64,000 bases of DNA from Streptomyces ruber (GTDB taxonomy: Bacteria; Actinomycetota; Actinomycetes; Streptomycetales; Streptomycetaceae): assembly GCF_014648075.1 (NCBI RefSeq), contig NZ_BMQK01000013.1, positions 62,001-126,000 on the forward strand, written 5' to 3'. Position 1 is the stretch's first letter; each line of letters opens with the position of its first letter. The translations under genes and the position numbers were made by a program. Shown here piece by piece: positions 11,053 to 44,110 of this stretch. The notes below the pieces were generated by a model that saw only the letters and a program-made list of their open reading frames with translations, was not told where the DNA came from and did not search any database.

Positions 11053-11137
11053 GGTGGGTTGCCCGAGCGGCCTAAGGGAACGGTCTTGAAAACCGTCGTG
11101 GCGCGAGTCACCGTGGGTTCAAATCCCACACCCACCG
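11053..11137 (+). tRNA. tRNA-Ser(UGA)
   Basis: An 85-nt class II tRNA. The acceptor stem GGTGGGT (11053-11059) pairs with ACCCACC (11130-11136). The anticodon stem ACGGT/ACCGT closes a CTTGAAA loop, giving anticodon TGA. A variable arm follows, with the T arm carrying GGTTCAAATCC. No CCA is encoded. The gene is intact, although its 3' part is the attL of the integrated element. Confidence 0.97.
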
Positions 11138-11138
11138 C
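11084..11138 (+). repeat. attL: left copy of 55-bp direct repeat
   Basis: This is the 3' part of tRNA-Ser from the anticodon loop to one base past the discriminator. It matches 20011-20065 at 54 of 55 positions; the single difference is G at 11105 against A at 20032. The left copy completes the functional tRNA. Confidence 0.95.
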
Positions 11139-11180: not shown

Positions 11181-11632
11181 TCGTGCTGCGTGCTGTCCGT
11201 GAGTGCCCGTCGTTCCCCGCGGTTTCCCGCTCGATCGGGCACGGCTGGGGCACGCCGGGCAGTCACCAAGTAGCCAGCGAAGCGAAGGCCTGGTCGGGCC
11301 TCTGCCCACTTGTCCGCTTCCCTGACTGGAACCAGAACGGTCGTGCCCGGAACTGGGTATTCCACATGGGCCGTGCTGGCTGGGGGCACCTCGTAACGGC
11401 AGTGCACCTCGGTAATGGTCAGCACCTCCAACCAGGTAGGTGTTAGCCGCTCCAGCCCCGGGCCGTGATGCTCCTCGCGGAAATCGATCTCAGTCGCACG
11501 TTCGCTACCCACAATGTCGGCGTAGTCCTCCGGGTCGGCCTCCAGGAGCCTCCACGAGACAACGCCTCCCGGCGTGAACTTCTGCCCGCAGCACTGCATC
11601 TGCCAGTCATCGACCCAAATCGTCAGCGTCAC
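11171..11632 (-). CDS. DUF6578-like protein carried by the AICE
   Basis: About 153 residues beginning VTLTIWVDDWQMQCCGQKF, which resembles the actinobacterial family annotated DUF6578 (WVDDWQMQCCG then a hydrophobic beta-rich domain, with WRLLEADPEDYADIVG and RYEVPPASTAHVEYPVPGT). The function is unknown. The GTG at 11632 has GGTGA about 11 nt upstream; an in-frame GTG at 11647 is possible. It is the only gene between attL and the noncoding palindrome block, so it is probably cargo. Its stop codon lies inside the terminator stem. Confidence 0.65.
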   Translation of the reverse strand: MTLTIWVDDWQMQCCGQKFTPGGVVSWRLLEADPEDYADIVGSERATEIDFREEHHGPGLERLTPTWLEVLTITEVHCRYEVPPASTAHVEYPVPGTTVLVPVREADKWAEARPGLRFAGYLVTARRAPAVPDRAGNRGERRALTDSTQHDGP

Positions 11633-12176
11633 GCTGCCATTGTTCACCGGGTGTCTGCGCTCACCAGGGCTGCCGCTCAACCTGCTACACCCCTCAGCCC
11701 ACCACTCACCCCAGCTCCCATCCCGTCCGCCGTCGACCCACACACCGTGGAGCGGGCGTGGTCCAGGGCGTCCAGGTGGAGCGCGCCACTGTACGAACGA
11801 CCTGGACGCCCTGGGCCGCGTCTGCTCGGCTCTGCCTGGGTCGACGGTGGACGGGATGGGAGCTCCCCGCGCACGCCACAATGTGCCCGCACTCGGCAAC
11901 GGCGCCCCCTCCATCCCGGTGCCGGCCGATCCCCCGCCGGAGGCACAGTCTCTGACCGGGCCGCGGTCGTGCGGTGCTCGCCACTCATAGCCCGGCCTCT
12001 TTCCCTCGTGGGCGTGCGTCGGCGCAGCGCCCGCAGCGCGGGCCGGAGGCAGGAGCGCGGAGGGCGGCGGAGCCGGGAGCACGCCCCGGCGGAGCGGAGC
12101 GCAGCCGGGCTTGATGAGGTAGAGAAACCTGTAACAGATCGCTTCTCGATGGTCGGGGCTGCCGCTTCGATGCGGG
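11633..12176. other. Noncoding block of the AICE, about 540 bp
   Basis: Reading frames on both strands here give Arg/Pro/Ser-rich products with no family-like features, and the strands encode similar peptides only because of the inverted repeat inside. The block separates the DUF6578 gene from ydcF. It is a candidate location for the cis-acting transfer locus (clt) or replication origin of the element, neither of which is otherwise accounted for. Confidence 0.6.
11713..11864. repeat. Long imperfect inverted repeat, 65-bp arms
   Basis: The arms are 11713-11777 and 11800-11864 with a 22-nt loop. The outer 28 bp match at 27 of 28 positions and the inner 15 bp (CCAGGGCGTCCAGGT) match exactly. 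Between them lie 22-nt segments of equal length that match at only about half the positions. The order is therefore 28-22-15, loop 22, 15-22-28. Equal spacing on both sides indicates one diverged inverted duplication and not a chance match. Confidence 0.85.
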
Positions 12177-12842
12177 TCAGGCCGAAGGCTCCTGGGTGGT
12201 GAGGAGTCGACTGGTGAACCCGTTGCGGCATAGTCGTTCGTATGCGTTGAGCACGTCATCCGGTACCTGCTGGCTGATCATGAAGCCTTGCTCCGGGTAG
12301 ACCAGCAGGCGCTGTAGCGCGCCTACGAGCATGTCGATCACCAAGCGCGCGTCCTGGATCGATTCGACGTACTCGCCGAGCGTCATTGGGGTGGAAGCGT
12401 TGACGACCTCGACCTCAGGCCAGAGCTTGCGGGCGGTGGCGTACGCCCGCCTCTCCTCGTACGGCTTGCTGATCAGGAGAACAGAGGACACGTCGACCTC
12501 GGCCTCCTCCAGGAGCTCTCTGGTGAAGCGGATGTTCTCGCCGGTGTTCCGGGCCCGTGGTTCAACGAGAACGGCGGAGTCGGGTACGCCCAGCTCGACT
12601 GCCCGCTCCCGGTAGTGGACGGCTTCGCCGCGCGGCATGCGATCCCGCGTCGTGGGGCTCGTCGCTCCGGTGAACACCAGCAGGGGCGCCATGCCGCGCT
12701 TGTACAGGTCTACCGCCGTATCAGCCACCCCTAGGTCATGGCTACCGAGTCCGACAGCAACCGAGCAAGGCCGGGGTGAGTGGCCGAGGTGGTGGTACTG
12801 CCACAGGCGCTCTGCATCCTCCCAGTCCTGCGCCGAGATCAC
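12177..12842 (-). CDS. YdcF/SanA-like protein (DUF218)
   Basis: About 221 residues of the DUF218 family (ElyC/SanA/YdcF). Features are an N-terminal beta-alpha core (VAVGLGSHDLGVADTAVDLY, LLVFTGATSPTTRDRMPRGEAVHY) and the family segment EPRARNTGENIRFTRELL, which contains the conserved Asn and Glu. Family members may bind nucleotides or act in envelope processes, but the biochemical role is unsettled. The GTG at 12842 overlaps the GntR stop codon (GTGA) and follows AGGAGGGACGGGA, so the two genes are translationally coupled. No transmembrane helix is seen. Confidence 0.85.
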   Translation of the reverse strand: MISAQDWEDAERLWQYHHLGHSPRPCSVAVGLGSHDLGVADTAVDLYKRGMAPLLVFTGATSPTTRDRMPRGEAVHYRERAVELGVPDSAVLVEPRARNTGENIRFTRELLEEAEVDVSSVLLISKPYEERRAYATARKLWPEVEVVNASTPMTLGEYVESIQDARLVIDMLVGALQRLLVYPEQGFMISQQVPDDVLNAYERLCRNGFTSRLLTTQEPSA

Positions 12843-14126: not shown

Positions 14127-15470
14127 ATGGCGGACTGGACGCTGTGGCTGGAGGCCACGGGAGCGCTCGCGGGGGCCGGTGGCCTCGGCTACGCCAAGGC
14201 GCGGGCCCCGCGGGTGTACTGGTCGCTGGTGGGGATGCCGGTCACCTGGGGCCGGTTCACCCTCTCCTACCGCTCCACGATGGACGTGTGCGGGCTGACG
14301 GTGCAGCCCTCGGGCCTGCGGGCGTTCATGACCCGCAACGTCGCCCGCCGCGAGGTACAGCCGGTCCCGCCGAAGATCCGCCGGGTCCGGGGCACCTCGA
14401 CCGGCTTGCGGGTCACCCTGCGGCTCCCGGCCGGGCTGGAACCCCACGACGTGATCGCCACCTCGGAGCGGCTCCGGCACGCCTGGGGCGTGCACTCGGT
14501 CACCGTCACCGAGACCAAGCCCGGATACGTGGAACTGCGGATGACCGGCTATGACGTGCTGCGCCGGGTGCGGATGCCACGCAAGGCCCGACCGCACGAC
14601 CTGATCGTCCCGGTGGCACTGCGGGAGGACGGGACCGCCTGGGAGCGGGACTACCGGGCGGCCCCGATGGCGCTCACCCTGGGCGCGAACCACTCGGGCA
14701 AGTCGATGTATCAGCGAAACCTGATCAAGGGGCTGGCGCAGTTGCCGGTGGCGCTGGTGGGCATCGACTGCAAGCGCGGGGTGGAACAGACCGCCTACGC
14801 CCCGCGGCTGTCGGCGCTGGCCACCACCCCGGACGATGCCGCCTCCCTCCTCGCCGTCCTGGTCGCGGAGATGGAGGACCGGTTCGACCTGCTGAAGCGG
14901 CACGGCGTCTCCGAAGTGTGGGAGCTCCCCGCGGCTGAGCGGCCGGTGCCGGTCGTGGTCCTGGTGGACGAGGTCGCCGAGCTGATCCTGATCTCCTCCA
15001 AGAAGGACGAGGAGCGCCGGGAGCGGATCGTCACGGGGTTAATCCGCCTGGCGCAGATGGCCCGCGCGGTCGGGATCCACCTGGAGATCTGCGGGCAGCG
15101 CTTCGGCTCGGACCTGGGCAAGGGCGCCACCATGCTCCGGGCCCAGCTCACCGGCCGGGTGGTGCACCGCGTCAACGACAAGCAGACCGCCGAAATGGGC
15201 CTGGCCGACGTGGCACCGGATTCGGTCGCGGTGGCCAGCCTCATCCCGATGGAGCGCCCCGGCACGGCGGTGGTGGCCGATGCCTCCGGCGGCTGGTCGA
15301 AGATCCGCACCCCGGAGACCTCCCGCGAGGAGGTGGCGGCGGTCTGCCGGGCCCACGCCCACCTCGTCCCGGACCTCCCCGCCCTCGAACCGTTCCGCCC
15401 GTTCGTACCCGCGCAGGAGGTGCCGGCCGCTGGGCCGTCGCTGGTCAAGCCCCGCCCGGTCACCGACTGA
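14127..15470 (+). CDS. TraB/TraSA-type FtsK-SpoIIIE DNA translocase
   Basis: 447 residues. An N-terminal region with one possible membrane segment (about 8-25) precedes the FtsK ATPase domain (about 165-400). Walker A is GANHSGKSM, Walker B is VPVVVLVDEVAEL, and GIHLEICGQRFGSDLGKG and LTGRVVHRVNDKQTAEMGL match the later FtsK motifs. In AICEs this single hexameric pump moves double-stranded element DNA between mycelia by recognising short repeats in clt. No C-terminal winged helix is obvious; the last 45 residues are Pro-rich. It probably forms an operon with the genes on both sides. Confidence 0.95.
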   Translation: MADWTLWLEATGALAGAGGLGYAKARAPRVYWSLVGMPVTWGRFTLSYRSTMDVCGLTVQPSGLRAFMTRNVARREVQPVPPKIRRVRGTSTGLRVTLRLPAGLEPHDVIATSERLRHAWGVHSVTVTETKPGYVELRMTGYDVLRRVRMPRKARPHDLIVPVALREDGTAWERDYRAAPMALTLGANHSGKSMYQRNLIKGLAQLPVALVGIDCKRGVEQTAYAPRLSALATTPDDAASLLAVLVAEMEDRFDLLKRHGVSEVWELPAAERPVPVVVLVDEVAELILISSKKDEERRERIVTGLIRLAQMARAVGIHLEICGQRFGSDLGKGATMLRAQLTGRVVHRVNDKQTAEMGLADVAPDSVAVASLIPMERPGTAVVADASGGWSKIRTPETSREEVAAVCRAHAHLVPDLPALEPFRPFVPAQEVPAAGPSLVKPRPVTD

Positions 15471-16984: not shown

Positions 16985-17173
16985 ATGATGCCCGAGCACG
17001 CCCCGAACACGCGCGTCTGCCGTGAATGTGACGGCTTTGCCACGGCCACGATCAGCACCGGCGCCCGCCACCGCGACGGCACCCGCGCCACCCTTACCGT
17101 CGCCTGCCCGGCCTGCAAGGGCACCGGCCGCACTCACCGCACCACCCCCGCGCTCCAGCGCGCCGGACGGTGA
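16985..17173 (+). CDS. Small zinc-ribbon-like protein
   Basis: 62 residues with two Cys pairs, VCRECDGF and CPACKGTG, in the CxxCxG arrangement of DnaJ-type zinc fingers, about 28 residues apart. Probably a single zinc-binding module. It starts with a double ATG after GGGAAGCTCC and ends 7 bp before the Rep gene, so translation of the two is likely linked. Function unknown; its position suggests a link to replication or transfer. Confidence 0.75.
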   Translation: MMPEHAPNTRVCRECDGFATATISTGARHRDGTRATLTVACPACKGTGRTHRTTPALQRAGR

Positions 17174-17180
17174 CCCGCCC

Positions 17181-18578
17181 ATGAGCAACGCCGCCACCAT
17201 GGCGGGCCTGGACCCGGCCACCCTCGCCGACGTGCTGAGGCTGGCCGGGTCCACCGGCTTCGACCGCATCCAGGACCAGATCCGCCGCACCGGCGGCTGC
17301 ACCGACCCGATCCACCTGACCGGCTCCACCGTCACCCGCGACAAGGCCACCGGCCAGGTCCTCCACTCCTACTCCACCGACACCGAACCCGGCGGGCGGC
17401 TCCGCGTGGCCTGCGGCAACCGCCGGGCCTCCCGCTGCCCCTCCTGCGCCTGGACCTACGCGGGCGACACCTACCACCTGATCCGCGCCGGACTCGTCGG
17501 CGACCCCGCCAAGGGCACCCCGGACACCATCCGCGAGCACCCGCGGGTCTTCGCCACCCTCACCGCGCCATCCTTCGGCCGGGTCCACAACAGGCCCGGC
17601 AACCGGCCGTGCGCCTGCGGCACCCACCACCAGGAGGACGCGCCCGAACTCGGCACCGCCCTCGACCCGGCCACGTACGACTACGCGGGCGCGGTGCTGT
17701 GGAACAACCACGCCTCCGACCTGTGGCGCTACTTCACGATCTACCTCCGCCGCGAGATCGCCAAGCGGGCCGGACTCACTCAGAAAGCCGCGCACGAGCA
17801 GTCCCGGGTCGCCTTCGGCAAGGTCGCCGAGTACCAGAAGCGCGGGGCCGTGCACTTCCACGCAGTGATCCGCTTCGACGGCCCCGAGGGACCGGACAGC
17901 CCGCCCCCGGCCTGGGCCACCCTCGACCTGCTGACCGACGCCATCCACGCCGCAGCCGCCCGCGTCGCGGTCGACGTGCCCGCGGCCGGGGACCAGCCCG
18001 CCCGCACCCTGCGCTGGGGCACCCAGCTCGACGTGCAACCCATCGGCGCCTTCGGCAACGGCGAGGACATCACCGAACAGGCCGTGGCCTCCTACGTCGC
18101 CAAGTACGCCACCAAGGCCGCTGAGACCACCGGCACCATCGACCGCCGCATCGGCAACAAAGAGGCCCTGGTCCTGCTCGGCGTCTCCGACCATCCCGCC
18201 CGGCTCATCGCCGCGTGCCTGGACCTGCACGCCCTCTACCCGGACCGCAAGCTCCGCGACTGGGCTCACATGCTCGGCTTCCGCGGCCACTTCTCCACCA
18301 AGTCCCGCCGCTACTCCACCACCCTCGGCGCCCTGCGCCAGGTCCGCGCCGACTACCGCGCCGCCCAGCAACGCGAAGCCCTCGGCCTGCCCGACCCCGA
18401 CGACACCCCAGAAGCGACCACGCTCACTCTCGCCCACTGGGCCTACGCCGGACACGGCCACACCCCCGGCGAAAGCTGGCTCGCCGCCAACATCCGCCGC
18501 GACATCCAGCACAACCGCGAGATGGCCCGCGAAGCCATGGCCGACCTGCAAGCACACGAGATCACGGGGGAGTGGTGA
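17181..18578 (+). CDS. RepSA-type replication initiator (HUH)
   Basis: 465 residues. The segment RGAVHFHAVIRFDG holds the HUH-like metal motif (HFH) of rolling-circle initiators, and a downstream segment YVAKYATKAAE carries the Tyr of the active site (YxxKYxxK pattern). N-terminal Cys motifs (GNRRASRCPSCAWTYAGD, RPCACGTHH) resemble the zinc-binding part of RepSA proteins. It drives replication of the excised circular element. ATG at 17181 is supported by the family start and by its closeness to the preceding stop. Confidence 0.92.
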   Translation: MSNAATMAGLDPATLADVLRLAGSTGFDRIQDQIRRTGGCTDPIHLTGSTVTRDKATGQVLHSYSTDTEPGGRLRVACGNRRASRCPSCAWTYAGDTYHLIRAGLVGDPAKGTPDTIREHPRVFATLTAPSFGRVHNRPGNRPCACGTHHQEDAPELGTALDPATYDYAGAVLWNNHASDLWRYFTIYLRREIAKRAGLTQKAAHEQSRVAFGKVAEYQKRGAVHFHAVIRFDGPEGPDSPPPAWATLDLLTDAIHAAAARVAVDVPAAGDQPARTLRWGTQLDVQPIGAFGNGEDITEQAVASYVAKYATKAAETTGTIDRRIGNKEALVLLGVSDHPARLIAACLDLHALYPDRKLRDWAHMLGFRGHFSTKSRRYSTTLGALRQVRADYRAAQQREALGLPDPDDTPEATTLTLAHWAYAGHGHTPGESWLAANIRRDIQHNREMAREAMADLQAHEITGEW

Positions 18579-18580
18579 CC

Positions 18581-18790
18581 ATGGAACGACTGCTCGACGT
18601 GCACCAGGTCGCCGAGCTGCTCGGCACCACCGTGCGCTTCCCGCGGCGCCTCATCGAGGAACGCCGCATCGCCTTCGTCAAGGTCGGACGACACGTCCGC
18701 ATCCCTGAGAGCGCCATAGAGGCGTACGTGACGGCCAACACCGTGGAGCCGATCGTCCTGCGACCGATGAACCTCCGGAGGGTTGCCTGA
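18581..18790 (+). CDS. xis: Excisionase (MerR-like DNA-binding helix-turn-helix)
   Basis: 69 residues with an excisionase-type winged helix (LLDVHQVAELLGTTVRFPRRLIEERRIAF split into helix 1, turn and recognition helix, then FVKVGRHVRIPESAIEAYV). It bends att DNA to favour excision by the integrase. It starts 2 bp after the Rep stop codon with GGGGGAG upstream; in-frame GTGs at 18572 and 18575 overlap rep. The stop overlaps the int ATG by one base. Confidence 0.92.
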   Translation: MERLLDVHQVAELLGTTVRFPRRLIEERRIAFVKVGRHVRIPESAIEAYVTANTVEPIVLRPMNLRRVA

Positions 18791-19971
18791 TGGCTGGCAA
18801 GCGCAAGTCCTCCCGCCGGGCCTTCGGCCGTATCCGGAAGCTCCCCTCCGGCCGCTTCCAGGCTCGGTACCCGGGCCCTGACGGCGTGCTCCGGCCTGCG
18901 GACCGGACGTTCGCCACGTCGACGGATGCGGACCGGTGGCTACAGCGGAAGCGCATCGAGATAGAAGAGGGGCGCTGGCTCGACCCGGCCGAGGGACAGA
19001 CCACCGTGCGCGACTGGGCGGCTCGCTGGCTCGCCGCTGTCTCCCCGCAGCTGAAGCACAAGACACAGGCGACGTACCGGTCCCTGATCAACTCGCTGAT
19101 CAATCCGGCGCTCGGGGACCGTGAGTTGTCGACCCTGCGCCCGATCACGATCGCTGAGTGGGTCGGTGGGATGAGTACGAAGGGGCTCAGCGCTTCGCGC
19201 ATCCGGCAGGCGTACCGGGTCCTGTCGCAGATCATGCGGGCGGCCGTCGACAACGACATGATCCCGCAGACGCCCTGCAGGGGCGTGCGGCTTCCCCGGA
19301 TGCCGCAGACAGAGCCGCACATCCTGACGCCGCTGGAAGCCTCCCGGATCGTCCGGAGTGCCGCCAAGCCCCATGACCTGCTGATCGCGCTGCTCGCGTA
19401 CGCGGGCCTCCGGGTCGGTGAAGCCTTCGCGCTCCGACGCGCAGACATCGATGCGGCCGGCGGCATCGTCCTGGTCGACGAGAACCTCGCCGAGGCCAAC
19501 GGCACCTTGGTCTTCGACACCCCCAAGTCACACCAGAAGAGGCTCCTCCGCGTCGGTCCGTCCCTTGCGAAGCGGCTCGGGCAGTACCTCGAGGAGCTGC
19601 CCGGCGGTGATGACGCGCTGCTGTTCACCACGCCCGCGGGGAAGCCGCTGCGCTACAACCAGTGGCGCAAGGCGTACTTCGACCCGGCGGTGTCGGCGGC
19701 CGGGCTGACCGACGTGACCCCGCACGATCTGCGAGCCTCGCACGGGACCTGGGTCGCCGACCGGTACGGCGTGATGACCGCCGCTCATCGGCTCGGCCAC
19801 TCGAATGCGAGCGTGACGACCCGGCACTACGCTCGACCTGTCGCCGGTCGTGACGACCAGGTGGCCAAGGCTGCGGACTCCTGGCTCGACGGGCACGATG
19901 ATGACCATGGGGCACGTAGCGGGCACGGCGACAATGACGACGGCTCCTCCGGGGCGCTCACACCCGTCTGA
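18790..19971 (+). CDS. int: Tyrosine integrase of the AICE
   Basis: 393 residues: an N-terminal arm-binding AP2-like domain (GRFQARYPGPDGVLRPADRT), a SAM-like core-binding domain (about 75-165) and a catalytic domain (about 180-375). Catalytic residues visible: Arg in YAGLRVGEAF, His-x-x-Arg in TPHDLRASHG, His in LGHSNASV, and nucleophile Tyr in TTRHYARP. It mediates recombination between attP and the tRNA-Ser 3' end. It ends 39 bp before attR, the usual AICE arrangement, and is coupled to xis. Confidence 0.96.
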   Translation: MAGKRKSSRRAFGRIRKLPSGRFQARYPGPDGVLRPADRTFATSTDADRWLQRKRIEIEEGRWLDPAEGQTTVRDWAARWLAAVSPQLKHKTQATYRSLINSLINPALGDRELSTLRPITIAEWVGGMSTKGLSASRIRQAYRVLSQIMRAAVDNDMIPQTPCRGVRLPRMPQTEPHILTPLEASRIVRSAAKPHDLLIALLAYAGLRVGEAFALRRADIDAAGGIVLVDENLAEANGTLVFDTPKSHQKRLLRVGPSLAKRLGQYLEELPGGDDALLFTTPAGKPLRYNQWRKAYFDPAVSAAGLTDVTPHDLRASHGTWVADRYGVMTAAHRLGHSNASVTTRHYARPVAGRDDQVAKAADSWLDGHDDDHGARSGHGDNDDGSSGALTPV

Positions 19972-20010: not shown

Positions 20011-20065
20011 TCTTGAAAACCGTCGTGGCGCAAGTCACCGTGGGTTCAAATCCCACACCCACCGC
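20011..20065 (+). repeat. attR: right copy of 55-bp direct repeat
   Basis: This copies the tRNA-Ser 3' part from the anticodon loop onward (see attL) with one base change. It is not a tRNA gene because the 5' half is absent; the sequence just before it does not match the tRNA. Confidence 0.95.
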
Positions 20066-43779: not shown

Positions 43780-44110
43780 GGCGGCAGCGTACGGGGTGCC
43801 GCGACCCTCAGGGTGTCCCTGCCGGGATCAGGCTGCCGGAGTGTCCCGCCCGGAACGGTCCCGGGCCGGTACCGGACGGTCTCGGGCCGGTACCGGACGG
43901 TCTCGGGCCGGTACCGGACAGTCCTTGACGGTCCTGGGCCGGTACCGGACGGTCCCTGACGGTCCTGGGCCGGTACCGGACGGTCCCATACCGGTCTCGG
44001 GCCGGTACCGGACAGTCCCTGACGGTCCCGGAACGGTCCCTGACGGTCCCGGAACGGTCCCGGGTGGGCCCGGGCTGGCCGGAGCAGCCCGCGAGATCAC
44101 GCACGCGAGA
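43780..44110. other. Intergenic region holding the palindrome array
   Basis: About 330 bp between the PPOX start and the yceI stop, both minus strand. It is dominated by repeats of GGTCCCGG/GGTCTCGG and CCGGTACCGG. There is no credible protein frame; the reading frames translate to simple repeats. Confidence 0.65.
43863..44013. repeat. Six GGGCCGGTACCGGAC repeats, helically phased
   Basis: The 15-mer occurs at 43863, 43884, 43905, 43936, 43967 and 43999 (start positions). Each contains the perfect 10-bp palindrome CCGGTACCGG. Spacings are 21, 21, 31, 31 and 32 bp, close to two or three DNA turns. Related units without the core (CTGACGGTCC) fill the gaps and continue to about 44060. Confidence 0.9.

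Follow-up and report, generated by a model that had tools for sequence, protein, structure and literature searches.

A very long + strand hairpin upstream of a putative double-strand origin as a probable single-strand origin, with exchangeable alternatives, of a Streptomyces AICE

Results

The window, i.e. the entire 64-kb stretch of Streptomyces ruber DNA analysed here, holds a complete pSAM2-type AICE that extends from 11084 to about 20065 and has its att site in tRNA-Ser. The genes of this element are arranged in the order GntR/UTRA, FtsK-type Tra, DUF2637, RepSA, Xis and integrase. A long hairpin is located about 560 bp inward of the attL end and in the same direction as rep. It is contained in a noncoding gap between the DUF6578 and DUF218 genes that measures 526 bp, in agreement with the block of about 540 bp described in the first-pass annotation. 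The features of the locus are listed here by position in the window.

11084..11138, + strand: attL, the 3' part of tRNA-Ser(TGA), from the att repeat; attR copy at 20011 to about 20065
11258-11650, - strand: DUF6578 gene, bordering the noncoding gap on its 5' side
11693..11955, + strand: entire noncoding block that is conserved (C-rich leader at the 5' end, long hairpin and ~90-nt 3' tail); its edges are sharp in the 51-sequence alignment
11713..11740, + strand: outer stem, 5' arm, 28 nt (covariation)
11741..11762, + strand: middle segment, 5' side, a sequence-conserved internal loop followed by a G.T-rich stem (most positions paired)
11763..11777, + strand: inner stem, 5' arm, 15 nt (pairing, covariation)
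11774..11803, + strand: apical loop with its closing pairs, motif AGGTGGAGCnCnCCnCTGnnnGAACGACCT (near-invariant columns in alignment A1)
11800..11814, + strand: inner stem, 3' arm (pairing, covariation)
11815..11836, + strand: middle segment, 3' side (pairing, covariation)
11837..11864, + strand: outer stem, 3' arm (pairing, covariation)
11865..11955, + strand: 3' tail, conserved in the alignment, in which CATCCCGG recurs (11912-11919) and a small hairpin, GCC-GGA-GGC, starts at 11936
12008..12109, + strand: GC-rich region of repeats and inverted repeats ahead of the nick motif (putative dso binding region)
12110..12136, + strand: putative double-strand origin (dso) core, nick-like motif CTTGATGAGGTAGAGAAACCTGTAACA, CTTG^ATGAGGTAGAGAAACCTGTAACA (profile match, conservation)
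Stop at 12177, - strand: DUF218 gene, bordering the noncoding gap on its 3' side
14127..15470, + strand: FtsK/TraB-type DNA translocase (PF01580, E 9.7e-30)
17022..18578, + strand: RepSA rolling-circle initiator (PF20199, E 1.2e-153)
18581..18790, + strand: Xis-like HTH_17 protein
18790..19971, + strand: tyrosine integrase

A coding function of the block was rejected: the ORF on the + strand has no Pfam family, and indels among the copies disrupt its frame. 'Int' matches at +40 to +85 derive from a spurious ORF across the hairpin and were disregarded.

The inverted repeat spans 11713-11864. As first described, its two arms of 65 nt (11713-11777 and 11800-11864; 83% complementary) flank a 22-nt loop and match at 27/28 positions in the outer module and 15/15 in the inner module; in the middle segment they match at 12/22. 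The repeat is real and far above chance expectation, with a gapped palindrome score of 80 that is the highest in the window and a maximum of 40 among 60 first-order Markov resamples of the window. The second-ranked palindrome of the window, at 43860-44074, has a score of 52.

The alignment of 51 sequences consists of the window and 50 copies, the flanks of which are unrelated. In alignment A1, the 22-nt apical loop and its closing pairs are nearly invariant, and the conserved mismatched columns on the 5' side of the middle segment are columns 32-40. The sequence element GAACGACC is part of the hairpin loop. The 3' tail is retained in the Micromonospora AICE pMR2 and in non-Streptomyces copies. 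CATCCCG at the base of the 5' arm (11719-11726) recurs in the tail (11912-11919), also in distant copies, and the tail copy could form an alternative fold by pairing with the 3' arm. In one hairpin copy (L078:11092-11249), the middle segments have become almost perfect complements of each other, a state that would result from copying one arm onto the other.

The two arms covary strongly. Among 19 divergent copies, double changes that preserve the pair were found at 31 of the 65 pairs, double-change cells numbered 86 as opposed to 23 in shuffles, and 90.1% of the cells were paired compared to 34-45% when the partners were slid. These compensating changes in the stem modules bear out the initial proposal that the paired modules are under selection. 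By contrast, the 22-nt segments between the modules are not the unconserved spacers that had been expected. While their divergence between the arms stands, they form Watson-Crick and G.T pairs on the + strand around an internal loop of conserved sequence, and their remaining positions are mostly paired rather than having merely drifted.

Outside the internal loop, the + strand has 122 G.T cells and 3 A.C cells among 23 non-redundant copies, where cells are not independent events and the comparison applies alike to single-stranded DNA and RNA. Because selection on a palindrome as double-stranded DNA would yield G.T and A.C at equal levels, this asymmetry argues that the + strand itself folds. 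Folded as single-stranded DNA, the + strand reaches -92.1 kcal/mol (z -7.3) and the - strand -82.5 kcal/mol (z -4.0). Judged by its pattern of variation, the folding strand is the + strand, and the folded single strand raised as a possibility in the first-pass annotation is supported by the covariation together with this one-strand folding.

Of 150 Streptomyces genomes, 107 contain a homologue of the hairpin. There are three in the host genome: the present copy, a copy carried by a second AICE (L007), and a relic about 100 bp long. The RepSA of this second AICE (G000:C1:265020-266264, near L007) has one in-frame TAG. Among plasmid records, the hairpin was found in pMR2 about 255 bp downstream of int. 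The exact loop motif alone occurs in at least 118 public contig stretches from at least eight actinomycete genera, which among the matches listed are Streptomyces, Actinacidiphila, Virgisporangium, Actinomadura, Acrocarpospora, Geodermatophilus, Nonomuraea and Actinoallomurus. In a phylum sample of 396 genomes, all nine with the loop motif encode RepSA compared to 33/396 overall, a comparison that is confounded in that most of the nine are Streptomyces. Phage records gave no match to the hairpin, and Rfam gave no family, with only chance microRNA matches to the long hairpin. As far as its distribution in sequence records indicates, the hairpin is an old conserved element; related elements carry it, and it is not a random duplication confined to one strain.

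On the same strand and about 335 nt 3' of the hairpin loop lies the nick-like motif, which is unique within the window. This motif was reached by an unguided k-mer scan of RepSA loci, and the dso is predicted from its conservation; guessing CTTGATA-type nick sites across all loci gave no clear position. The motif at 12110-12136 resembles the nick site of pC194 and phiX174, CTTG^AT. A profile of the dso region matches 57 of 63 RepSA loci (E < 0.05) on the Rep strand. A dso-like profile match lies downstream of 118 of the 144 hairpin copies for which the sequence extends far enough, in 118/118 cases on the same strand, and CTTGATGA occurs 75 times on the + strand and never on the - strand, at a median distance of 335 nt. 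In an independent set, the downstream genes, where found, are also on the same strand (RepSA 25/25, FtsK 36/36, korS-like 37/37). No exact CTTGATGA is present near L007, and several non-Streptomyces hairpin copies have no recognisable dso or AICE genes nearby.

When loci were sampled by RepSA instead of by hairpin, 5 of 40 carried the present hairpin sequence, and the hairpin was rejected as a universal AICE part. The exact hairpin is present in some related elements; many RepSA AICEs lack it, most of them with a different conserved element in the same slot, often a long hairpin, and in several cases one that folds better on the + strand. In 14 of 30 non-type-A slots, the + strand folds better than any background window, and because only these 14 do so, some AICEs seem to be without a comparable hairpin.

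In closely related pairs of elements, whose Reps are 99% identical, there is an abrupt switch at about 90 nt 5' of the nick. For instance, L067 (present type) and L112 (type B) have 99% identical Rep and share 98.6% identity over the 2.6 kb that begin at -85 and run past the nick, and their cassettes differ; in L046/L100 and L068/L115, identity breaks at about -100. Across 24 loci, Rep identity correlates with that of the dso core (Mantel r 0.71, p 0.0005) and not with that of the hairpin (r 0.08, p 0.26), and in pairs with Rep below 60% the identity of the hairpin block is still 87%. The Tra comparison gives the same pattern (hairpin versus TraB/FtsK, r 0.19, p 0.14). From these comparisons, AICEs appear to exchange unrelated hairpins in this slot.

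In other RepSA AICEs, the slot, at about 125-315 nt upstream of the nick motif (L112, L107, L106, L110, L117, L102 and others), is filled by one of at least two additional conserved hairpins, B and B2, or by type C, which is less structured (L101, L113, L116, L085). Upstream of the dso, the type C loci share the conserved motifs GAAAGTCAGCCACGACGG and CCTCAGCCACGCT as well as a repeated TCAGCCACG, and these may be protein-binding or clt repeats. A fourth long hairpin of different sequence (L092:7072-7226, - strand), with 65-66-nt arms and a 23-nt loop, lies upstream of a RepSA gene.

Discussion

We suggest that the hairpin together with its tail is probably the single-strand (lagging-strand) origin (sso) of the AICE, that it is recognised by host factors, and that it represents a new, very long type of sso with exchangeable alternatives. 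According to the papers cited here, ssos in general are orientation-specific and stem-loop-forming (PMC5037232 citing Khan 2005; PMC4595007; PMC5714925), are generally located immediately upstream of the dso with some known exceptions (PMC5037232 citing Khan 2005; PMC4595007), and rely on host enzymes and not on Rep (PMC5037232 citing Khan 2005; PMC4595007; PMC5714925). To the extent that sequence can address these features, the hairpin shows the stem-loop, the orientation and the location. It is noncoding and, by covariation and folds, a stem-loop that would form as a single strand; at the sequence level, the excess of G.T over A.C and the invariably same-strand dso-like matches point to the displaced strand and to one orientation; and its loop lies just upstream of the candidate dso, the core of which is conserved, contains a CTTG^AT-type nick motif and tracks Rep. 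In other words, a hairpin that covaries and folds on one strand adjoins a candidate dso, in support of the replication-origin (oriV) role that had been proposed for it.

From these features, we infer a series of events that would consist of nicking at the 12110 motif, folding of the single strand in vivo, and recognition and priming by the host. After excision, RepSA would cut the + strand within CTTG^AT, between 12113 and 12114, and the + strand would then be displaced by leading-strand synthesis. The putative sso sits directly upstream of the putative dso and would therefore be exposed last: the hairpin, directly 5' of the nick, would be the last part to become single-stranded and would fold on the + strand. 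The folded hairpin would offer its conserved apical and internal loops to the priming enzymes of the host, either primase or RNA polymerase. These enzymes would begin the complementary strand, and the single-stranded form would be copied back to double strand. The hairpin would be one among several interchangeable cassettes in the slot before the AICE dso.

Two properties would also be expected if the hairpin were an accessory part of the dso: its spacing from the nick motif hardly varies (median 335 nt), and in RepSA loci it is always accompanied by a dso. Such a part could be, e.g., a terminator acting with RepSA on the leading strand, or a hairpin that binds or loads Rep. We consider this unlikely because the nick core tracks Rep identity while the hairpin does not, and because unrelated hairpins work with 99%-identical Reps. 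Moreover, the dso core is kept in elements without the hairpin, and the hairpin is present in pMR2, the RepSA of which belongs to another subfamily (PMC3218068).

The covariation and the tolerance of G.T on the + strand suit RNA as well as single-stranded DNA, and the hairpin could be a structured non-coding RNA from the + strand, e.g. one that regulates excision, copy number or incompatibility. This appears quite improbable given that the conserved block begins about 20 nt before the stem without a conserved promoter, that consensus searches found neither a sigma-70-like promoter nor a terminator, and that Rfam has no such family. The flanking genes are both on the - strand, and it is the dso, and not a promoter, that sets spacing and orientation.

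It is very unlikely that the hairpin or the adjoining GC-rich repeats are a clt bound by TraB/FtsK, as the first-pass annotation had offered as an alternative. The location is noncoding, imperfect inverted repeats have been reported in the clt of pIJ101, pJV1 and pWTY27 (PMC3583192), and no clt has been described for pSAM2 (PMC9513070). However, the region 11956-12176 near the hairpin has a single two-copy direct repeat instead of an array of short repeats for recognition, the hairpin tracks TraB/FtsK weakly and without significance, and no preference for G.T over A.C would be expected of a double-strand site. Finally, a non-autonomous MITE-like mobile palindrome inserting into AICEs is scarcely credible despite up to 10 BLAST matches per genome (both strands counted), relic copies outside intact AICEs and sharp block edges: slot and orientation are constant in every intact RepSA AICE examined, the inverted repeat does not mark the ends of the unit because the tail belongs to it, other hairpins replace it with no insertion into an empty site, and the compensatory changes show function.

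In the open-licence literature searched, which does not include the original 1993-94 pSAM2 replication papers, we found no description of an sso of an AICE, that of pSAM2 included, or of the conversion of the single-stranded replication form of AICEs to double strand; the conversion of transferred ICE DNA in general is likewise stated to be undescribed (PMC4595007). The sso reading makes the hairpin and its natural swaps a 263-bp testable part, the loop motif could be used as a handle for finding the host factor, and sso and dso together could serve as a marker for locating AICE origins in genome sequences. As a tentative generalisation, for which the case is nearly balanced, we speculate that AICEs across Actinomycetota carry an undescribed set of ssos: very long hairpins of several sequence-unrelated types with their own conserved loops, exchanged as cassettes before a common dso and read by an actinomycete host priming system that works without known sso signals.

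The ssos of Gram-positive rolling-circle plasmids (ssoA, ssoU, ssoT, ssoW) are, like the hairpin, noncoding, orientation-specific stem-loops on the displaced strand, located just 5' of the dso and exchangeable between replicons. By contrast, the AICE element is a single very long hairpin with 65-bp arms and its own loop motif, and no sequence relation to these ssos was seen. The CS-6 motif TAGCGT is the type-specific sequence of ssoA; this was the sso-type motif searched for, and TAGCG is absent from 11693-11955. Among Streptomyces plasmids, an sso (sti) is known in pIJ101, and priming independent of RNA polymerase has been reported for pSN22 (PMC4170104). The sti/sso of pIJ101 and its relatives resembles what is proposed here in that it serves as the lagging-strand origin for conjugative rolling-circle elements, and these belong to the same genus; pIJ101 (NC_001387) has none of the loop motifs and no comparable palindrome (best score 32 versus 80). 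With regard to the dso, the likeness is to the replication origin of pSAM2, which has a RepSA-type initiator and for which a pC194-type nick site has been reported (PMC3218068). Sso1 of ICEBs1 is likewise an orientation-specific sso made of stem-loops in an integrative conjugative element (PMC4595007). However, it consists of three stem-loops downstream of oriT/dso in a relaxase/T4SS element, whereas the hairpin described here lies upstream of the putative dso in a RepSA/TraB element.
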